A stretch of 21,608 nt of DNA. Source: a virus. Shown one piece after another: positions 683 through 13,940 of this stretch. Under the pieces are notes generated by a model. That model was not told where the DNA came from and searched no databases. It saw nothing but the letters and a program-made list of their open reading frames with translations. The first letter of the stretch is position 1. The number at the start of each line of letters is the position of its first letter. The position numbers and the translations under genes were made by a program. Location: positions 1 through 21,608 of IMG/VR virus record IMGVR_UViG_3300043468_001441; one strand, 5' to 3'.

Positions 683-3055
683 TCAATTATTTTTCGATTT
701 TTTTAAGAATACTATGGTGCCTTCGACTTTGGCCGCATTCGCGTCGATGAGTGAATCGCGCAAAGCTGCTTTAGCCTTAGCCATTTGCCCACGCTCGGCG
801 GTGCGGGAAACGGCCTTTTCAAGCTCGCCGATTTTTAACTTGGCGCAAGCAGCAAATGCTTCGGGAGTGATTTTATTTTTCACAACCTCCCATGCGGCTT
901 GCGGGTCAGTGATCTCAAAGCTGCTTGCTCGCTCGGCGAGTTCGTAGCCTGGGATTTCCACTCCCGAGAGCCGGAGTTCCAAAGCGCGGGCATCTACTTT
1001 TTCGGCCCATCCTTTGAGGATCGGAGCGAGACGCTTCGCCAGCGCGATCTTCTCGGGGTTGCTGATGAGTTCGGGATCGAACTCCGGCGGGAGAGCCAGT
1101 TCGTCGGGCTGGTATTTTTTCGCGATGGTCAGCGCCACTTCGTTGAGCTTGTGGCATTCGGCACGGTGGTTGCACCACGCGCAATGTTCCCCTGTCTGGT
1201 AGGAGGCTGGATCGTTGCGGCGAGCCGCTGCGACAATGGCGGCGACTTGCGCGGAGAGCCGCTCGTAGTCTGCCTCGCGAGTCCACTCCACCACATCAAT
1301 GATGCCTTGGAACGGGAGCAGAACATGAACCTTGAGCGTCTTGACCTCGGGATGCGCGTCGAAGATTCCAACGCCATAGGCCCAGAATTGAGGCGAATCC
1401 GCCTCGTATTTACCCCACGCGAATTTGTAGTCCACCAACTCGGCACTCGTGCCGTGGAGCATCACATGGTCGATGTGTCCAAACTGATCCTGCACGATGT
1501 AGCGGCGCTCGCGGATGTCGGTGATCTTTTCCGAAATTCCTTCGCGGAGTTTAGTGAGATACGCGAGACACAGCCCCGCACATTTGCGGAGAAACTCGTC
1601 ATCGGGCGGGATGAGATCGAGGTTTTGTTTCTCGACAGCCTCGTGTCCCAGTGTGCCTCTGTCGGCGGCGGTGGTGTCTCGGGTGTTATCGTTGCGGAAG
1701 CCTGGGCATTTCGCTTTCTCTTTGAGCGAGCTTGGCGAGTGTTCCGCATGGGCTCTCTCGGTATGGAGCGACACCTCGGCGATGTCGCGGGGTTGTTCTT
1801 CTGGTTTCATAATTCCGTCGTTTAGGATTTTTGTGTTTTCGCGTTTGTGTTCTGTCAGGGAGAGAGCGGCGACCTCGATGGTGCCCGGAACGAAGAGGCG
1901 GAGCGCGAGAGCACGGTTCTTTGCTCCCACGCGCCGAATGCGCCCGATGGCTTGTTCCTCGGCGACGCCTGAAAATTGAGGGCAGAGTAGCGCCGTGCGT
2001 GGCGCATCGCCACGAGTGTCGTGGAGGTCGATGGACTGCCCGCCCGCGCCGATTTGGACGATCAGACAGCGGAGGACATTGGCTTGAAATTTGTCGCGAC
2101 TCGCCTGCCGGTGTTCGGTCTTTTCGCGCCCGTCGATCACTTCTGCCATGTCCCCAAGAAGCGATTTGGCGCTGTCGATTGAGGCGTGGAAGTTGAGAAA
2201 TAAAACAACGCTCCCGCCCTCGGCAACGATCTCTTTGGCCCGCTCCACGATCGAGGGCGTCTTGATGAGTTCGATCGCTTGGCGTTGACGCAAGTTCTTG
2301 ACCGCGCCGATGTCCTCTTGGTCGGTCATTTCTTCGTAGAGCTTTTTGATTTCGGCCCGTTCTTCCGAGGACAGATGAATCGGTTCGTCCGCGAGCGTCA
2401 GGTCGGGAAGCTCCTCGCGAAGCACCTCGGCGGGCGTCCGGTTCCCACGGCATCCGAAAATGGATTCGTGGAGGCGTTGCATCCGCAGTTTGTTTTCGAG
2501 AGATTTCGGGTTCCAATCCAGCCCGCCCCAGCGCCCGTCTTCCGCCCCCATCTGCTTTGCCCAAGACCAAAACGCCCTAGGGTGGAACAGATCGAGCTTC
2601 GCTCCGATTGCTTTCATCTTGAGCGGGGATTCCGCCGCCGAGGCAGACAGCATCAGCGTCCGGTAGGGAGCGCACTCCAGCATTTTCCCGTTTTGGCTTT
2701 TAAGCCCGCTGAACATGTGAACTTCATCGACGATGAGGAGAAGGGTCTCGGGAACCCACTTGAACGCCTTTCCCGCTTTCTTCACCCAGGGCGTGTTGCC
2801 TGCCCGCAGCTTCTCGGGGTTCTCTACAAAAATCGGCTCGATGCCGAACTCCGCAATCGTCGCCCGCCATTTCTCTTTCACGCTCTTTGGACAGATGACT
2901 CCCACCGGCAGCGCCATTCTGCGAGCCACTTCGCAGGCGATGATTGTTTTTCCCCCGCCGCATTCGGTTGCCTCCAAAGAAGCCCCCACACGGTCGAGTG
3001 CGGTCATGTTGACCAGCACCGCCGATTGTTGAAACGGATAGAGCGAGTATTTCAC
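683..3055 (-). CDS. SF2/SNF2-like helicase fused to a Cas4/AddB-like Fe-S RecB-family nuclease (790 aa)
   Basis: The N-terminal half (about 1-410) is a superfamily 2 helicase. It has an N-terminal YPFQQSAV element, Walker A ECGGGKT (31-37, Lys36), DEVH (110-113), an SAS motif III (137-139), motif V QIGAGGQSIDL (334-344) and motif VI QAIGRIRRVG (368-377). The C-terminal part (about 435-680) is a PD-(D/E)XK nuclease of the RecB/Cas4/DUF2800 type. It has His471, Asp529 in GHIDHV, the VDYK pair Asp542/Lys544, a QxxxY motif (Gln556, Tyr560) and four cysteines (450, 625, 628, 634) placed as in AddB/Cas4 [4Fe-4S] nucleases. It probably resects or unwinds DNA during phage replication or recombination. 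The start is GTG at 3055, overlapping the upstream stop as GTGA. In phages these two activities are usually separate genes; here they are one frame. The family assignment is firm, the exact role is inferred. Confidence 0.9.
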   Translation of the reverse strand: MKYSLYPFQQSAVLVNMTALDRVGASLEATECGGGKTIIACEVARRMALPVGVICPKSVKEKWRATIAEFGIEPIFVENPEKLRAGNTPWVKKAGKAFKWVPETLLLIVDEVHMFSGLKSQNGKMLECAPYRTLMLSASAAESPLKMKAIGAKLDLFHPRAFWSWAKQMGAEDGRWGGLDWNPKSLENKLRMQRLHESIFGCRGNRTPAEVLREELPDLTLADEPIHLSSEERAEIKKLYEEMTDQEDIGAVKNLRQRQAIELIKTPSIVERAKEIVAEGGSVVLFLNFHASIDSAKSLLGDMAEVIDGREKTEHRQASRDKFQANVLRCLIVQIGAGGQSIDLHDTRGDAPRTALLCPQFSGVAEEQAIGRIRRVGAKNRALALRLFVPGTIEVAALSLTEHKRENTKILNDGIMKPEEQPRDIAEVSLHTERAHAEHSPSSLKEKAKCPGFRNDNTRDTTAADRGTLGHEAVEKQNLDLIPPDDEFLRKCAGLCLAYLTKLREGISEKITDIRERRYIVQDQFGHIDHVMLHGTSAELVDYKFAWGKYEADSPQFWAYGVGIFDAHPEVKTLKVHVLLPFQGIIDVVEWTREADYERLSAQVAAIVAAARRNDPASYQTGEHCAWCNHRAECHKLNEVALTIAKKYQPDELALPPEFDPELISNPEKIALAKRLAPILKGWAEKVDARALELRLSGVEIPGYELAERASSFEITDPQAAWEVVKNKITPEAFAACAKLKIGELEKAVSRTAERGQMAKAKAALRDSLIDANAAKVEGTIVFLKKSKNN

Positions 3056-3970: not shown

Positions 3971-3985
3971 AGGTTATTACACCCC
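3971..3985 (-). promoter_or_regulatory. GGTGTAATAACCT motif just before the HTH gene
   Basis: Read on the minus strand this is GGGGTGTAATAACCT, followed by AAT and the ATG at 3967. It contains the TAA stop of the upstream RHH gene (3977-3979). The same core, TGTAATAA followed by ACC, precedes other genes on both strands. No canonical -35 sits at the right distance. A protein-binding or translation-related role is as likely as a promoter. Confidence 0.45.
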
Positions 3986-4126
3986 AAGAAACTTTCGGAG
4001 GGCTTCACGAATAATTTCAGAGATGGATTTGCCCGTCCTTTCCCTCTCCTTAGCCAAACCTTTTTCAAGGTCTGGCGAGGAGGGGAATGAACGAATCAGC
4101 TTAGGATTCGAGTTTTTCGGCATCAT
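3977..4126 (-). CDS. Ribbon-helix-helix regulator, about 49 aa
   Basis: From the ATGATG at 4126/4123 the protein reads as one RHH domain. A beta strand (KLIRSFPSS) is followed by two helices, DLEKGLAKERERTG and SISEIIREALRKFLGV, with the S-I-S-E helix cap typical of CopG/Arc-type proteins. Longer in-frame starts exist upstream, but those residues lie inside the neighbouring gene and look unnatural. This start therefore gives a 26-base overlap with the preceding RHH-like gene in another frame, implying coupled translation. It probably binds DNA as a dimer. Natural operator candidates are the AATAACC or TTGTCC sites in this window, but no link is shown by sequence. Confidence 0.7.
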   Translation of the reverse strand: MMPKNSNPKLIRSFPSSPDLEKGLAKERERTGKSISEIIREALRKFLGV

Positions 4127-4277
4127 CAATTCCGAGCAACTCAGGGTCCTCGACGGCACTTTTGACAGCGTCGCGTAGCAGTTTCAGCGCCACTTCTTCT
4201 GGCGAATCGCTACTTATTGCGGCAAGCACATTGAGCGTTGCGGCAAGGGTTGGTTCGAGGGTTATGGTGAGTTGCAT
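4101..4277 (-). CDS. Short RHH/VapB-like protein (58 aa)
   Basis: A 58-codon frame starts at ATG 4277 and ends at TAA 4101. The N-terminus MQLTITLEPTL is a single beta strand. It is followed by a helix AATLNVLAAISS, a turn SPEEV, a second helix ALKLLRDAVKSAVED and an acidic tail GIDDAEKLES. This strand-helix-helix pattern matches small RHH antitoxin/regulator proteins. The ATG follows an element with GTAGTAATAACC (4301-4312) and GATAACTCC, the same kind of site seen before other phage genes. Its 3' end overlaps the next RHH gene by 26 bases out of frame. No toxin gene is adjacent, so a regulator role is more likely than an antitoxin. Confidence 0.65.
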   Translation of the reverse strand: MQLTITLEPTLAATLNVLAAISSDSPEEVALKLLRDAVKSAVEDPELLGIDDAEKLES

Positions 4278-4351: not shown

Positions 4352-4642
4352 CTATCGGGCGAATCGCTTCTGGAGGTTTTTGGCGAGTTCCAGAATCTCG
4401 GGGTCTAGTGTCTCCTTGGCCCGCTGCTTCGGCGTATCGGATTGCTTTTCGCGGGATTTTTTGGCTTGGGAGAGGAAAACTCCAGATGGGTCTTCTTTTT
4501 TCAGGAGGTCTTCAGTGGCGACGCGCATGAGGGCGCTGATCGAAACACCTTTATAGACTGCCATTATTTTAAGAGCCTTGTGGACATCGCTGCTTTCGAC
4601 ATACGACACCCGTTCGGTTCCTTCTTTGAGTTGATTCGGCAT
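4352..4642 (-). CDS. Ribbon-helix-helix DNA-binding protein with basic C-terminal tail (96 aa)
   Basis: Residues about 8-45 form an RHH domain. A strand RVSYVESS is followed by helix DVHKALKIMAVYKG, turn VSISAL and helix MRVATEDLLKKED. The remaining 50 residues are charged (SREKQSDTPKQRAKE, ILELAKNLQKRF) and may form a helix for oligomerisation. A longer frame begins at 4687, but those extra residues would translate the A/C-rich leader, so the ATG at 4642 is preferred. It is the first gene downstream of the integrase in the leftward direction, and a perfect AATAACCT/AGGTTATT inverted repeat lies 60 bases upstream. This suggests autoregulation, but that is inference. Confidence 0.75.
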   Translation of the reverse strand: MPNQLKEGTERVSYVESSDVHKALKIMAVYKGVSISALMRVATEDLLKKEDPSGVFLSQAKKSREKQSDTPKQRAKETLDPEILELAKNLQKRFAR

Positions 4643-4691
4643 ATATTTATTTTGGTTTCTTTTGTTGCTGGTGAGGCAACCGCCCAAATTT

Positions 4692-5894: not shown

Positions 5895-5918
5895 GGTTTT
5901 GTTTGGTTCGGTGTTGGT

Positions 5919-5944
5919 TTTTGTCCTGAAAAGTTAGGACAAAA
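5919..5944. promoter_or_regulatory. Candidate operator A, TTTTGTCCT-N8-AGGACAAAA
   Basis: A perfect 9-base inverted repeat with an 8-base spacer, located 25-50 bases upstream of the integrase ATG. It would place a bound dimer over the start of the leftward transcript. The half-site TTGTCC recurs twice more in the same intergenic region and makes a repressor or activator site likely. Confidence 0.55.
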
Positions 5945-5953
5945 TGGTGACAA

Positions 5954-5986
5954 AGGTGTAATAACCTTGCAAGAAGATAATAACCC
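5954..5986 (+). promoter_or_regulatory. Double TAATAACC motif in the divergent region
   Basis: AGGTGTAATAACCT (5954-5967) is followed by GATAATAACCC (5976-5986) with an 8-base spacer that contains TTGCAAG. It is the most complete copy of the motif found before genes at 3967, 4277, 7954 and 9817. It sits between operators A and B, so it may serve the leftward early promoter or act as a second regulator site. Confidence 0.45.
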
Positions 5987-6029
5987 GACGGCGAAAAACC
6001 CGTAGGTTTGCGTAGAGAGAGGGGGTTCA

Positions 6030-6052
6030 TTGTCCGCAGAAATTTTGGACAA
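6030..6052. promoter_or_regulatory. Candidate operator B, TTGTCC-N11-GGACAA
   Basis: An inverted repeat of the same half-site as operator A, with an 11-base spacer (A has 10 bases between the six-base half-sites). The right half, GGACAAAAAGG, closely resembles GGACAAAATGG in operator A. It abuts the tRNA-like attP candidate. Confidence 0.45.
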
Positions 6053-6055
6053 AAA

Positions 6056-6080
6056 GGGGCAGCGCCTACGGGATTCGAAT
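6056..6080 (-). other. Candidate attP: tRNA 3'-end-like sequence (T-loop to acceptor stem)
   Basis: Read on the minus strand the stretch gives a T-loop TTCGAAT, a 3' T-stem strand CCCGT, an acceptor 3' strand AGGCGCT, a G at the discriminator position and then CC. This is the layout of the last 25 bases of a tRNA gene. The 5' T-stem strand that should precede it only partly matches (ACGCA where ACGGG would pair), and no D-arm, anticodon arm or 5' acceptor strand is present, so it is a fragment. Phage integrases commonly use tRNA 3' ends, and this lies 160 bases upstream of the integrase start. Comparison with a host tRNA would settle it. Confidence 0.6.
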
Positions 6081-6141: not shown

Positions 6142-6159
6142 TTGTCCTAAGTTGGACAT
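6142..6159. promoter_or_regulatory. Candidate operator C, TTGTCC-N6-GGACAT
   Basis: A third inverted repeat with the TGTCC/GGACA half-site, here with a shorter 6-base spacer, ending 13 bases before the terminase ATG. A protein bound here would block or regulate rightward late transcription. The different spacing makes common recognition with operators A and B less certain. Confidence 0.4.
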
Positions 6160-6172
6160 ACCTTGTCACGAA

Positions 6173-7933
6173 ATGGTTCAAAAAAATGTCGGAGTTCTTG
6201 TCGATGACGGCAAAACTCCGGTCCCGAAAGGGAGCATTGTTCGCTACGGATACATCTATCCCCCGAAGACGGCTGACTGGACGATTGAGCTTCACGCTTT
6301 TCGTTCCATAGCCAAAGACGGAACCCCTCGCGAGGAGAATTTCAAGCGGGCGGCCCAGATGTTTTTTCTCAATAATTTTGTTTGGCACCCGTGGGCCGAG
6401 GACATGCTGCGTGAGTGTTGCTACTCGAAGTTCGTGGGATTTGCGGGGTGCGGTTCGAGTGGCAAGTCGGACTTCATGGCGGTTTGGATTTTGCTGAACT
6501 GGATGGCGGCTCCTTTTTCCACGCTGGGATTGTTGACCTCGACTTCGATCCGTGACTCCAAGAAGCGCGTGTGGGGTGCGGTGCAGAGGTATTGGCCCGC
6601 GCTCGCGCCGATTGCGCCTGCAAAATTAACCGACACCCCCACCCCAGCGATCTATGTCGTCAAGGACAAGGTTCGCATGGAGCAGGCGGGAATTTATTTG
6701 ATCCCGGCGGAGGCGAAAAAATCCAACGAAGTCACGGGCAAGATGCGAGGCATGAAAGCGCCGCGAGTCTTTCTGGCAGCGGACGAGTTGAGCGAGTTGT
6801 CGCACGCGCTGATGGACACGGCGATGTCGAACCTTGCGAACAATGCGGTTCTCCACATTTGCGCGGCGGCGAACCCTGTCAGCTACTACGACCCTTTCGG
6901 AAAATTCGTGGAGCCGAAGGACGGGTGGAACTCGATCACGGTGAATGACGATCGCTGGGAAACCAAGCTGGGAGGGGTTGCGCTTCATTTCGACGCGATG
7001 CGAAACCCGAACTACATCGCTCGAAAAAATGTTTGGCCGATTCAAAAATGGGAAAAAATCGAGGAGGCAGTCGAGCGGCTTGGCGAGGATTCGCCGATGT
7101 TCTGGCGAGACTACCGGGGATTCTGGCCCCCAGGTGGCGTTTCCAAGGCAGTGTATTCCGAGCAAGAAATTATCAAAGGTGGCGCGGACAAGGCTCCGGT
7201 GTGGCAGGGCTCGAAGATGCGAGTGGCAGGGGTTGACCCTTCGTTTGTCTCGGGCGGCGACCGCTGCGTGTTGTATCTCGGGAGCTATGGCCTGAATCGT
7301 GACGGCGTGGATCAGGTATCATTTGATACCTTTCATTTCATCGAGGACGACGCTTCCAGCAAGGAGCCGCGCACTTTTCAGGTTGCTCAAAAGATCGCGA
7401 CGGTCCTGCGTCAGGAGGGCGTGGACGCTCGATCTTTTGGCGTGGATGTGACCGGCGGCGGCGTTCCCTTTTGCGATGCGCTTTCCCGCGTGCTGGGGAC
7501 GAATGATTTTTTGCGTGTGCATTTCGGCGGGTCGCCGAGCGATCGCCCCTTGTCGCCGTATGACCCGACTCCTGCTAATGAGAAATACACCAACCGCGTC
7601 ACGGAACTTTGGTTCGGCGCGAAGGAGTGGCTCCAGAACGGGCAGCTTCGTGGAATCGGCCCTGACCTTGCCCAGGAGATGACGGCGCGAAATTTTGAGA
7701 CCCGCAAAAGTGGCGGCATGAAACTCTGCGTCGAGCCGAAGTCCGACATGAAATCCCGTATGGGGCGTTCACCTGATATTGCCGACGCCGCCTTCGTGTT
7801 GTTGGAGACGGTTCGGGAGCGGTTTGGTTTGAGGCCGCCTCAAGAAGTCGGCCCAAGAGGTCGGAGTTCGTGGCGTTCCGCCATGAGACGCTTCGATGTC
7901 AAGTCAAATTCAACTTGCCTTTTGGAGGTATAG
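6173..7933 (+). CDS. terL: Terminase large subunit (586 aa)
   Basis: DNA-packaging motor ATPase plus headful or site-specific nuclease. The ATPase has a Walker A-like GCGSSGKS (92-99, Lys98) and a Walker B VFLAADE with Asp204 and Glu205, followed by a coupling-type AANP motif. The C-terminal RNase H-like nuclease has Asp355 (GVDPSF), Asp425 (GVDVTGGG) and Asp535/Asp538 (SPDIADAA). ATG 6173 is chosen over an in-frame TTG at 6152, which would overlap operator C. The last codons run into the duplicated 43-base regulatory element. No small terminase gene is recognisable beside it, and the portal gene is 13.4 kb away, which is unusual. The rightward late genes follow directly. Confidence 0.93.
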   Translation: MVQKNVGVLVDDGKTPVPKGSIVRYGYIYPPKTADWTIELHAFRSIAKDGTPREENFKRAAQMFFLNNFVWHPWAEDMLRECCYSKFVGFAGCGSSGKSDFMAVWILLNWMAAPFSTLGLLTSTSIRDSKKRVWGAVQRYWPALAPIAPAKLTDTPTPAIYVVKDKVRMEQAGIYLIPAEAKKSNEVTGKMRGMKAPRVFLAADELSELSHALMDTAMSNLANNAVLHICAAANPVSYYDPFGKFVEPKDGWNSITVNDDRWETKLGGVALHFDAMRNPNYIARKNVWPIQKWEKIEEAVERLGEDSPMFWRDYRGFWPPGGVSKAVYSEQEIIKGGADKAPVWQGSKMRVAGVDPSFVSGGDRCVLYLGSYGLNRDGVDQVSFDTFHFIEDDASSKEPRTFQVAQKIATVLRQEGVDARSFGVDVTGGGVPFCDALSRVLGTNDFLRVHFGGSPSDRPLSPYDPTPANEKYTNRVTELWFGAKEWLQNGQLRGIGPDLAQEMTARNFETRKSGGMKLCVEPKSDMKSRMGRSPDIADAAFVLLETVRERFGLRPPQEVGPRGRSSWRSAMRRFDVKSNSTCLLEV

Positions 7934-8296: not shown

Positions 8297-8830
8297 ATGG
8301 CTGAGATTATCGAAATTATTGGTTCAGGGTTGACCGGCCCACAGGGACCTCGCGGTTTGCCGGGATTGAACGGTGCCCCAGGGGCGGCGGGAGCGATTGG
8401 GCCGCAAGGAATCGAAGGCCCTGTCGGGCCTGTCGGCCCGAAAGGCGATAAGGGCGATCAAGGCGATCGCGGGTTGCAGGGGCTTAAAGGAGATAGCATT
8501 GTCGGCCCCCAGGGCGAACCCGGTCCTCGCGGCTTGAAGGGCGATCCAGGGACTCCAGGCCCGCAGGGCATTAAAGGCGATCGCGGGCCTGACGGCCCGG
8601 CTGGCCCGGCTGGCCCTATGGGCGCTCGCGGATTTCAAGGACTTCGCGGCGACCCCGGACCACAGGGCATTGAGGGCACTCGCGGGTTGCAGGGACCGGC
8701 TGGAGAACAGGGGCCGGTTGGGCCACAAGGAATTATGGGGTTGCGCGGCTACACAGGTCCGCAGGGTCCGCAAGGCGAAGTTTCCAAAGGCTCGGTTATG
8801 GCGTTTTCTATCGCCCTAGGGGGAGTTTAA
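8297..8830 (+). CDS. Collagen-like tail fibre stalk protein (177 aa)
   Basis: After a short N-terminus ([10 protein letters not shown]) the protein is almost wholly Gly-X-Y: about 18 triplets (11-64), one break GDSIV (65-69), then 31 triplets (70-162), ending with a 15-residue non-collagen tail. The X-Y composition (PQ, PK, DK, ER-like charge pairs) is suited to bacterial and phage triple helices that fold without hydroxyproline. It probably forms a trimeric rod in a fibre. The tail is too short for a knob, so the next gene product may supply the distal part. Stop and the next start are adjacent (TAA GTG). Confidence 0.85.
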
Positions 8831-9816: not shown

Positions 9817-10527
9817 ATGAAGCAACAATACAAGGGCACACATACTTTTGATGTTGCGAGCAGGACTATTACCCTGCTCGGCATTGAGATTCTGCCTGAG
9901 CGATTGCTGCTGGTGGTGAACTCTACGGTCGGATTTGTTTACCACAATTTCGCCGCTGATCCGAATGCCGACATTACCATTTCCGGTGGCAATACGGTCA
10001 TTGTGTTCCCGCAGTATAAGGACTGTGACACGCACCGAGCGACGGACGCTCTCTCGATTTTCTACGATGATGGCGTTGACCTTGGGAAGCTCATTAAGGA
10101 CGAGAGCGATCAAACTCAAGTCATTCTGACTGATATTCAGGCCGAACTTGAGGACGCTAACTCCACGCTGACGGCTTTTAAGGCAGAGGTCAAATCTGAG
10201 TCAGACGACACTCAAGTCATCCTTTCGGAGATTAAGACCGAACTCGACACCGCGAGCGCGACGCTGTCGGATTTCAAGACGGAGGTTAAGACAGAGTCGG
10301 ACGAAACGCAGGCGCTCCTCGGAACCAAGCTCCCCAACCCGGTAAATGGACGAATCCCTGTGGAGACTCTAGGGAAATACGAGCCGACGAATGATGTCGC
10401 TGTGAATATGTCTTATGGCTCGTTTGGCATGAGCCAAGTGGTTTTTTCCAAGGCGGGCACGACCCTTAAAACCCTCAACATGAATTACGATTCCCAAGGA
10501 AATTTGGTGGCTGTCATCCCAACATGA
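9817..10527 (+). CDS. Coiled-coil fibre/adaptor protein, short paralogue (236 aa)
   Basis: A clear paralogue of the preceding gene. It has the same N-terminal DVASRTITL-GIEI-PERL-NSTVGFVYHN head, the NTVIVFPQYKDC junction, two 32-residue coiled-coil repeats (96-159) and a C-terminus with LKTLNMNYDSQG. It lacks the 73-residue Gly-rich insertion. The gene has its own copy of the 43-base upstream element, unlike the longer paralogue, so the two could be expressed at different levels. The stop overlaps the next start (ATGA at 10524-10527). Probably a trimeric fibre segment; no enzymatic motifs are seen. Confidence 0.75.
   Translation: MKQQYKGTHTFDVASRTITLLGIEILPERLLLVVNSTVGFVYHNFAADPNADITISGGNTVIVFPQYKDCDTHRATDALSIFYDDGVDLGKLIKDESDQTQVILTDIQAELEDANSTLTAFKAEVKSESDDTQVILSEIKTELDTASATLSDFKTEVKTESDETQALLGTKLPNPVNGRIPVETLGKYEPTNDVAVNMSYGSFGMSQVVFSKAGTTLKTLNMNYDSQGNLVAVIPT
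10102..10293 (+). repeat. Two 96-base coiled-coil repeat units in the short paralogue
   Basis: Units 10102-10197 and 10198-10293 correspond in phase and length to those at 9335-9526. Predicted heptads have Leu/Ile core positions. A third partial unit starts at 10294. Confidence 0.7.
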
Positions 10528-12347
10528 GGTTTTTCTTCAACCCCGTCTCTGGTCAGTTGAACGCGGGTCCTCCCCGCGAAATTGTTTATGCCGACACCGC
10601 GCCGCTGTATCCGTTGGAGGGGTCGCGCTGGTTCGACACGATCAATCTTCGCGAATATGTCTATGACGGCACCGCCTGGGTGGAAACGGGCGTCGGCCCC
10701 GCTGGCGTCAAGGGAGACACCGGAGACAAAGGGGATAAGGGCGACATCGGAAATGTTGGCCCTGTTGGGCCGCAGGGTCCGGCTGCGACGGTTGCGGTAG
10801 GCACGGTGACGACGGGGGTCGCTGGAACCAACGCCTCGGTTTCTAACTCCGGCACGAGCGGAGCGGCGGTTTTGGATTTTACGATTCCCCAGGGAGCCAA
10901 AGGCGATATAGGAAACATCGGGCCGCAGGGGCCACAGGGGATTCAGGGTGTGAAGGGCGACGATGGCGCGAGCATCAGCCTTAAAGGCGCTGTGACGAGC
11001 CCTGCCGACCTGACTTCTATCGCGGTCAAAGTTGAGGGCGATCTGTATGTCGCCCAAAGCGACGGTAACGGTTATGTGTGGGATGGCTCTACTTGGGTCA
11101 ATGTGGGTCAGATTCGCGGGCCGAAAGGCGACACGGGCGCTCAAGGCCCCGCAGGTCCGGCTCCGTCGGGCACAGGCGCAGTGGTGGTGAGCAATGGCGT
11201 CGCGGGAACCCCGGTGGGGTATGGCACGACCAACATTGCCAGCACGCTTGTTCAGCGCGATGCCTCTGGCAATTTTTCAGCAGGCGTCATCACGGGTAAT
11301 TTAAGTGGCAATGTGACGGGAGGCGTCACGGGCAATGTGACAGGTAATGCCAGCACAGCTTCCAAATTAGCCACCGCGCAGACGATCAATGTTTCCGGTG
11401 ATGTCACCGGCACGGCTCAAAGTTTTGACGGTAGCGCAGCCATCTCGATTCCAACCGCGATTTCTGCGGGCGTGATTGTCAATGCGGACATTAACGACAA
11501 CGCTCAAATTGCTGACACTAAACTTGCCACGATCTCTACCGCCAATAAAGTTTCCAATTCCGCCACGACAGCGACTTCGGCGAATACTGCCAGCGCGATC
11601 GTCGCCCGCGACACGAACGGCAATTTCTCGGCTGGCACAATTACAGCAAGTTTGTTCTCCGGCAACGCCAGCACAGCAAGCTCCGCCGCAAAGCTCACGA
11701 CGGCTAGGAATATCAACGGGGCCCCCTTCGATGGTTCTGCGGATATTACAGTCCCCGCTATATTGCCAGCTAGGCTTGGAGTATCTGGTCAGACAGTCAC
11801 GGATTGGGACGCTGCTTTAGAGAATGGTTGGTATATGGCGTATAACGCTACTAACCAGCCTGGAGGAATCGTAGATTGGTGGCTTGGAAGTGTTGAAGTT
11901 CATAACGCCAACTGGGTAACTCAGACAGTCCATCGTTTTACGGCGGACAGCTTAAGTAATACTGAAGTCTGGCGGCGAAGCTCTTGGGACAATGGAGGCG
12001 GTCGCTCATGGCAGTCTTGGTATAAATTGCAGTTATCCCAAGAGGAGCAAGACGCTCGTTACGGACGATCTTGGTCCACAAAGACCGCCGCTTACACCGC
12101 TGTCGCGGGCGACCGAATTGTAGCGAACACCACGGCGGCGGCTTTTACAATCACGCTCCCCGCGTCTCCCGCTAACTACGCGGAAATCGTTTTTGCAGAC
12201 CACTACAACCAATGGGCGACGCTCAACCTCACCATCGCCCGCAACGGGCAGAACATTGAGGGTCTCGCCGAAGACCTCGTGTGCAATGTCGCAGGGCAGC
12301 AATTCACCATGAGATATGAAGGAACAACCTGGAGAGTTTATTTATGA
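10524..12347 (+). CDS. Tail fibre with collagen segments and a pyocin-knob-like domain (607 aa)
   Basis: A mosaic fibre. The N-terminus (1-54) has a YADTAPLYPLEGSRWFDT ... YVYDGTAWVE pattern common at fibre starts. Three short Gly-X-Y blocks lie near 55-85, 124-150 and 199-212. Residues about 210-410 carry phage fibre repeats (RDASGNFSAG, GNASTASKLATAQTI, ADINDNAQIADTKLATI). Residues about 420-510 (WDAALENGWYMAYN ... NTEVWRRSSWDNG ... WQSWYKLQL) match the pyocin-knob/receptor-binding pattern. The final 90 residues are a beta-rich tip. It is probably a trimeric receptor-binding fibre. ATGA overlap upstream; its TGA overlaps the ATG of the collar gene. The knob region has more AT-rich codons than the rest. 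Confidence 0.85.
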   Translation: MRFFFNPVSGQLNAGPPREIVYADTAPLYPLEGSRWFDTINLREYVYDGTAWVETGVGPAGVKGDTGDKGDKGDIGNVGPVGPQGPAATVAVGTVTTGVAGTNASVSNSGTSGAAVLDFTIPQGAKGDIGNIGPQGPQGIQGVKGDDGASISLKGAVTSPADLTSIAVKVEGDLYVAQSDGNGYVWDGSTWVNVGQIRGPKGDTGAQGPAGPAPSGTGAVVVSNGVAGTPVGYGTTNIASTLVQRDASGNFSAGVITGNLSGNVTGGVTGNVTGNASTASKLATAQTINVSGDVTGTAQSFDGSAAISIPTAISAGVIVNADINDNAQIADTKLATISTANKVSNSATTATSANTASAIVARDTNGNFSAGTITASLFSGNASTASSAAKLTTARNINGAPFDGSADITVPAILPARLGVSGQTVTDWDAALENGWYMAYNATNQPGGIVDWWLGSVEVHNANWVTQTVHRFTADSLSNTEVWRRSSWDNGGGRSWQSWYKLQLSQEEQDARYGRSWSTKTAAYTAVAGDRIVANTTAAAFTITLPASPANYAEIVFADHYNQWATLNLTIARNGQNIEGLAEDLVCNVAGQQFTMRYEGTTWRVYL

Positions 12348-13183: not shown

Positions 13184-13593
13184 TGAAAAACGCATACTCA
13201 TTCCATCCTGAAACCGGAGTTTTTATTGGTGTTGATTTCGCGCAGGAATCGCCTCTGGAGCCTGGAGTTTTTCTACTCCCGCGCTCAAGCACTTTTGATG
13301 AGCCGCCGAAAGTTGCCAATGGCAAACAGGCGGTTTGGAATGGTGAAATTTGGGAGGTTCAAGATACCCCGCCACCTCCAGAGCCCCCTGCTCCTGAGCC
13401 CGAGCCTTTGACTTGGGACACAATTCGTGCCCAACGCAATTTCCTCCTCGCCCAAAGCGACTGGACTCAACTCGCCGACGCTCCTTTGACCGCAGAACAA
13501 AAGAACGCTTGGACCGTGTATCGGCAGGCGCTTCGCGATGTGCCTTCGAGTTTCTCTACTCCTGAAGAGGTCGTTTGGCCCGCAATTCCGTAA
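13183..13593 (+). CDS. Tail fibre assembly chaperone-like protein (136 aa)
   Basis: The N-terminal half ([24 protein letters not shown] ... [10 protein letters not shown]) resembles Caudo_TAP/Gp38-type fibre assembly proteins. A Pro/Glu linker (about 59-76) leads to a C-terminal domain [22 protein letters not shown] ... [15 protein letters not shown] ... VVWPAIP, the signature of the phage tail assembly chaperone family placed next to fibre tip genes. It would help trimerisation of the collar-domain tip. Start and the previous stop overlap (TAATG). It is a non-virion helper in known systems; whether some of it stays in the virion is unknown. Confidence 0.85.
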
Positions 13594-13595
13594 CC

Positions 13596-13940
13596 ATGCT
13601 TTCCTTTCCATCCAGCCCTAACATCGGCGACATCTACACCTACGGCGTTCGGTCGTGGGTGTGGAGTGGCGCGGTGTGGTCGGCGGCTCCTTCCTCCGGG
13701 CCTCCGGGCGTGGAGGGGCCCCCAGGGCCGCAGGGACCCGAAGGACCGGTCGGCCCCCAGGGACCCGCTGGAAGCCAGGGCGATACGGGACCCGCAGGGC
13801 CTCCGGGGCCTGCCGGACCCGCTGGCGCGAAGGGAGATCAGGGCATCCCTGGCCCCGCCCCCTCTGGCACAGGCTTTGTCTTTGTGGAAAGCGGCGCTCT
13901 TGTGACGCCCTTCCTCGATCTTGACGCCGGACGATTTTAA
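13596..13940 (+). CDS. Short collagen-like fibre protein, possibly truncated (114 aa)
   Basis: ATG 13596 lies 2 bases after the chaperone stop. An in-frame TTG at 13575 would overlap that gene and is not used. Residues 1-36 ([21 protein letters not shown]) resemble fibre N-terminal docking sequences. About 37-93 is Gly-X-Y. The end is [29 protein letters not shown]. The APSGTG linker also occurs in the 607-residue fibre (near residue 213), where a long distal domain follows. Here the chain stops about 20 residues later, so it may be a fibre that lost its tip, or a stalk completed by the next gene product. Confidence 0.7.

Follow-up and report, generated by a model that had tools for sequence, protein, structure and literature searches.

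Does the short tRNA-like stretch between the integrase and terminase genes of an uncultured virus serve as the site through which its phage integrates, and if so, into which gene of which host? The window analysed here is a whole virus record of 21,608 nt (IMG/VR IMGVR_UViG_3300043468_001441, positions 1–21,608), in which an initial annotation had proposed 6056–6080 as a copy of a tRNA 3′ end. The minus strand reads attcgaatcccgtaggcgctgcccc from 6080 to 6056, and the proposal stands for 22 of these bases: the tRNA-matching part is 6058–6079 only (TTCGAATCCCGTAGGCGCTGCC), while 6056–6057 and 6080 lie outside the match. From 6079 to 6058 the minus strand runs, as had been read, through T-loop (TTCGAAT), T-stem (CCCGT), acceptor (AGGCGCT), discriminator (G) and CC. 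We consider it nearly certain, from the sequence comparisons described below, that 6058–6079 serves a temperate tailed phage of Verrucomicrobiota as its attP, where the tyrosine integrase encoded alongside would recombine the 22 bp with their exact counterpart at the 3′ end of the host's tRNA-Glu(CTC) gene.

Because T-loop motifs are brief and widespread, and because on the minus strand the core is followed by a run of T, the resemblance might be an accident or reflect another role, such as that of a terminator or an RNA decoy. Such readings are extremely improbable given that the core, at up to three mismatches, occurs only once in the 21.6-kb window and in none of 100 dinucleotide-preserving shuffles, that it matches 22 of 22 bases at the exact 3′ end of a gene, and that four different RNA-gene ends occupy the same place in relatives. 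Judged from its surroundings, the core is an attP and not an integrated junction, because the window contains no tRNA gene (ARAGORN, whole window) and phage genes flank the core on both sides, with the integrase on one and the terminase on the other. The same integrase-core-terminase order recurs in independent contigs, and the earlier claim that the record represents an excised or virion form agrees with all of this. Head-to-tail prophages in a tandem array would also put a core between integrase and terminase, and integration leaves tRNA fragments in genomes (PMC4383910), from which the stretch might be a junction or a relic of an old integration and not a working attP. However, in the independent contigs the flanks drift while the core stays intact, and a dead piece would itself drift and would not come to match other host RNA genes exactly at their ends; we therefore regard this explanation as very improbable.

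Table 1. Positions of the putative attP core and of the features around it in the window.
Feature	Position	Strand	Evidence
Two small ribbon-helix-helix proteins, downstream of the integrase	3977-4159, 4352-4687	-	Pfam RHH_1, Antitox_RHH
Tyrosine-recombinase integrase, 400 aa	4692..5894	-	PHROG 1 integrase, E 8e-23
Candidate arm-type/accessory site	5918..5944		inverted pair TTTTGTCCT / AGGACAAAA; similar sequence in relatives
Candidate arm-type/accessory site adjoining the core	6040..6057		GGACAAAA motif
attP core (putative)	6058..6079	-	identical to 3′ end of host tRNA-Glu(CTC), TTCGAATCCCGTAGGCGCTGCC
Candidate arm-type site	6142..6153		TTGTCCTAAGTT, 11/12 complementary to 5931-5942 across the core
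Terminase large subunit, opposite side of the core	6152..7933	+	PHROG 2, E 1e-12

The integrase, whose start is separated from the core by 163 bp (Table 1), is recognised as a tyrosine recombinase through PHROG 1; against Pfam PF00589 it scores 20.4 bits, under the cut-off of 27.1. Residues R251, K280, R333 and Y365 are invariant among 14 relatives and are assigned as catalytic by their alignment position, while at the His-x-x-Arg position the usual His is replaced by Asn (N330) in the window integrase and in all 14 relatives aligned. The two ribbon-helix-helix proteins, for one of which the Antitox_RHH match is below its Pfam cut-off, are possible excisionases or regulators. Translation of the terminase is likelier to start at the ATG at 6173 than at 6152, and relatives with the same gene order carry a terminase 70–82% identical to it.

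Several further features of these genomes were observed. In two close relatives (L003 and L004) the terminase P-loop is interrupted at GSSGK^SDF (window 6463–6465; L004 about 6765–7793) by about 1.03 kb of inserted sequence, which in L004 is an in-frame intein with Hint and homing-endonuclease domains (Pfam PF05203 and PF05204); in the window terminase this site is empty. A 790-aa protein at 683–3055 combines a helicase-like N-terminal half (PHROG 62) with an exonuclease/DUF2800-like C-terminal half (PHROG 69), and collagen-like Gly-X-Y runs, tail-fibre-like in character, are found near the tail collar protein in the proteins at 8297–8830 (profile-supported), 10524–12347 and 13575–13940. The 527-aa integrase frame of L035 (4927–6510) has an N-terminal stretch that appears duplicated in the alignment.

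Searching the core against bacterial tRNA genes gave a match reaching far beyond the T-loop. Its first 20 bases equal the 3′ end of tRNA-Glu(CTC) in eight Verrucomicrobiota genomes (20/20, in register, each gene called by ARAGORN), and the identity rises to 22/22 where the gene encodes CCA. The base after the 22-base stretch is A, giving CCA, in most real tRNA-Glu(CTC) genes, whereas in the window CC follows it. Among 388 genomes of the phylum, reached via a Chthoniobacterales MAG, one (G137) holds the exact 20 bases, at the end of tRNA-Glu(CTC), and within the order of that genome (147 genomes sampled) the exact bases occur in eight. Five of these eight belong to the family of G137, which comprises 26 genomes and also includes G009 and G010 (the latter a MAG titled Chthoniobacterales bacterium VE2); the other three belong to the same order, outside the family. 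G137 itself carries exact targets of three kinds, namely tRNA-Glu, tRNA-Asp-type and tmRNA. Comparison of the window DNA with 210 genomes of the order gave short or weak matches only (some 30–40 bases) and no prophage, and no prophage of close relatives was found at tRNA-Glu(CTC), a search with the terminase profile over the 210 genomes being empty at E 1e-30.

The site was then followed through viral relatives. The exact 20-base core is present in seven IMG/VR contigs. L003 and L004 are 97–99% identical to the window across the att region, while in the more divergent L002 (integrase identity 47%), L007/L008 (41%) and L006 (26%) the core is preserved and the bases on either side differ. L005 is the end of an isolate prophage, where a complete tRNA-Glu(CTC) with the same 20-base 3′ end adjoins an integrase of another type. 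Since the window integrase alone retrieved two near-copies only, an alignment of four integrases was used as the query, which returned 80 viral loci. A tRNA or tmRNA 3′ end lies 154–258 bp upstream of the integrase start in 38 of the 41 rows aligned, and these 38 comprise 29 different integrases. As in an attP for a tRNA gene, the core is next to the integrase and has phage genes on both sides in the unintegrated form.

The targets identified across these relatives are tRNA-Glu(CTC), tRNA-Asp(GTC), tmRNA and tRNA-Glu(TTC). Cores ending GTAGGCGCTG, GTATGCGCTG, GTACGCGCTG and GTGCGCGCTG reproduce the tRNA-Glu(CTC) ends of various genomes from the order, as do the variant cores ATGCGCTG, ACGCGCTG and GCGCGCTG for other genomes in it. 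tRNA-Asp(GTC) ends account for cores ending GTAGGCTCCG or GTAGACTCCG, and the GGCTCCG and GACTCCG cores are likewise tRNA-Asp ends. A core ending TTCGACTCCCGTCGCCTCCA and the CGCCTCCA cores are tmRNA ends, and one ending GTTAGGGTCG is the tRNA-Glu(TTC) end; the core of L039 is left out of these target classes. We rejected the idea that the differing cores represent one tRNA varying between hosts, which is true for tRNA-Glu(CTC), but tRNA-Asp and tmRNA are separate targets. A loose tRNA-end pattern (GCC at fixed spacing) was also dropped, as it matched a coding site and missed the core. In a separate integrase clade (L051, L054–L065) a TTCGAACCC-type motif lies in the opposite orientation about 150 bp from the integrase, with variable sequence after it.

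Relatives are also found integrated beside tRNA genes, as had been anticipated: L196 at tRNA-Asp, L200 at tRNA-Glu(CTC), and L120 and L078 at tRNA-Glu(TTC). In L196, L200 and L078, which are relatives and not the window's own phage, a complete tRNA is followed by the core and then by the integrase. The closest integrated relative is L196, a contig of G437 from the same 26-genome family as five exact tRNA-Glu(CTC) targets, and it reads in order host genes, complete tRNA-Asp, core, a flank aligning with the phage attP, and the integrase, which is 54% identical to that of the window over 98 residues, has one in-frame stop and runs off the contig. In L197 the tRNA-Asp and a second core copy are 11.1 kb apart, with an integrase 27.8% identical beside the copy, and in L200 a distant integrase of the wider family lies directly 3′ of tRNA-Glu(CTC). 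L162 had resembled an integration junction, the GTCTTTTTTG after its tRNA-Asp also being seen in some phage cores, and was rejected because host genes lie on its flanks.

Other loci in the host genomes show related arrangements. At G424:C2:1641421–1642703 (L205) two tRNA-Glu(CTC) cores with the same downstream sequence are 1.26 kb apart, and the tRNA body is present only at the first; no integrase of the family was found inside, and the locus is a putative very small element or remnant. At G472:C153 (L224) and G472:C130 (L221) a tmRNA 3′ end without the tmRNA body is followed by the sequence that follows tmRNA in other genomes, and each resembles the distal boundary of an element inserted at tmRNA.

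These relatives bear on whether the natural host lies outside the 26-genome verrucomicrobial family, with the attP real and the tRNA-Glu end common to other bacteria. The isolate prophage L005, with its unrelated integrase, has the identical 20 bases in its tRNA-Glu(CTC), and three of the eight exact genomes fall in the order yet outside the family. On the other side, the species-genome collection yielded 12 integrase relatives, 11 of them bearing Verrucomicrobiota titles and one, L120, called simply “bacterium” in its title, and L196 comes from the very family that holds five of the exact targets, so we find a host elsewhere unlikely. The earlier expectation that the matching tRNA gene would name the host holds down to the family and not finer, the exact core being present in 5 of its 26 genomes, elsewhere in the order and in the unrelated isolate prophage L005. 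The core alone is insufficient to name a host because close relatives often use a different target.

Direct support for the attP reading comes from the exact tRNA-Glu(CTC) identity, the near-constant position beside the integrase, the lack of a tRNA body and the relatives integrated by tRNA genes. The integrase, which we infer acts on the 6058–6079 core, would exchange it with its exact match at the end of the host tRNA-Glu(CTC) gene; the phage core would then rebuild the 3′ part of the tRNA, and the displaced host copy would mark the far end of the prophage. Weighing against this reading are the empty search for integrated close relatives at tRNA-Glu(CTC) in the 210 genomes, the tRNA-Asp location of L196 with the in-frame stop in its truncated integrase, and the missing A of CCA in the window core, for which the rebuilt tRNA would rely on CCA addition. 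Strand exchange is likely to occur in the T-loop, because the identity block starts there, at TTCGA, in attP and displaced copies alike. A T-loop sublocation of strand exchange, with the crossover within the T-loop, was reportedly described by Williams in 2002. The GGACAAAA motif occurs in four copies in the window, three of them at 5919–6054, with counterparts in relatives, and the motifs around the core may be arm-type sites; the TTGTCCTAAGTT site is one among several short repeats and could be due to chance.

The target changes can be followed between nearly identical phages. L027 and L024 are 92.4% identical over 9,292 bp spanning the att site, yet their cores differ. For the fine comparison L024 was represented by L023, whose integrase and core are identical to it, and between L023 and L027 the left flank is 93% and the right flank 96% identical, the integrase protein 91%, and the core 14 of 22. 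The L023/L024 core equals tRNA-Glu(CTC) except at one T-loop base (L025 and L026 match in full), while that of L027 equals tmRNA, and the target changes are confined to the core. Mapped onto the integrase tree, the five target classes require 6 changes, compared with 15.9 in shuffles, and well-supported branches force changes numbering 3 for tRNA-Glu(CTC), 3 for tRNA-Asp and 2 for tmRNA. A whole core may be replaced through recombination between phages or when excision from a new site goes wrong. We tentatively propose, at somewhat less than even confidence, that the attP core could be an exchangeable cassette: integrases that share about 91% identity, and whose sites have conserved flanking arms, would use 22-bp cores of tRNA-Glu, tRNA-Asp and tmRNA, the target being set mainly by identity between core and host and not by integrase-core contacts.

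tRNA-targeting integrases are the established knowledge behind the proposed exchange and gene restoration (PMC4383910; PMC10111431). In tyrosine-integrase phages and islands, the attP, about 250 bp long, includes the piece of the target gene by which that gene is restored, tRNA and tmRNA genes both serve as targets, and integrases switch targets frequently (PMC4383910). The present site shares with these Islander-type integrations the attP size, the target-gene fragment and the choice of tRNA and tmRNA genes, and differs from them in belonging to an uncultured verrucomicrobial phage family whose swaps can be read in nearly identical backgrounds. The core of mycobacteriophage Ms6 likewise occupies the T-loop and 3′ terminus of a tRNA gene, the 7-base T-loop is a possible place of strand exchange, and a changed attP core was shown by experiment to redirect integration to another tRNA gene (PMC1762012); that shift was engineered between tRNA-Ala genes, whereas here natural cores extend across Glu, Asp and tmRNA genes. 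The integrase of Akkermansia phage Chantilly (ON453895), also a verrucomicrobial phage, figures among just three matches obtained from the phage collection and is distant from that of the window (23.5% identity over 63% of the protein). No verrucomicrobial example of such a site was found in the literature at the level of titles and abstracts, where coverage was partial. The type of site and the switching of integrase targets are already known; what is new is the phage family, the host family assigned to it, and core swaps with such sharp boundaries. From sequence alone, uncultured phages are given a host at family level, and the phylum concerned is one for which the searched collection contains few phages. 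If the cassette reading is true, a new target would need a changed core only. The natural series of att core changes between nearly identical phages offers material for testing how an integrase changes its target.
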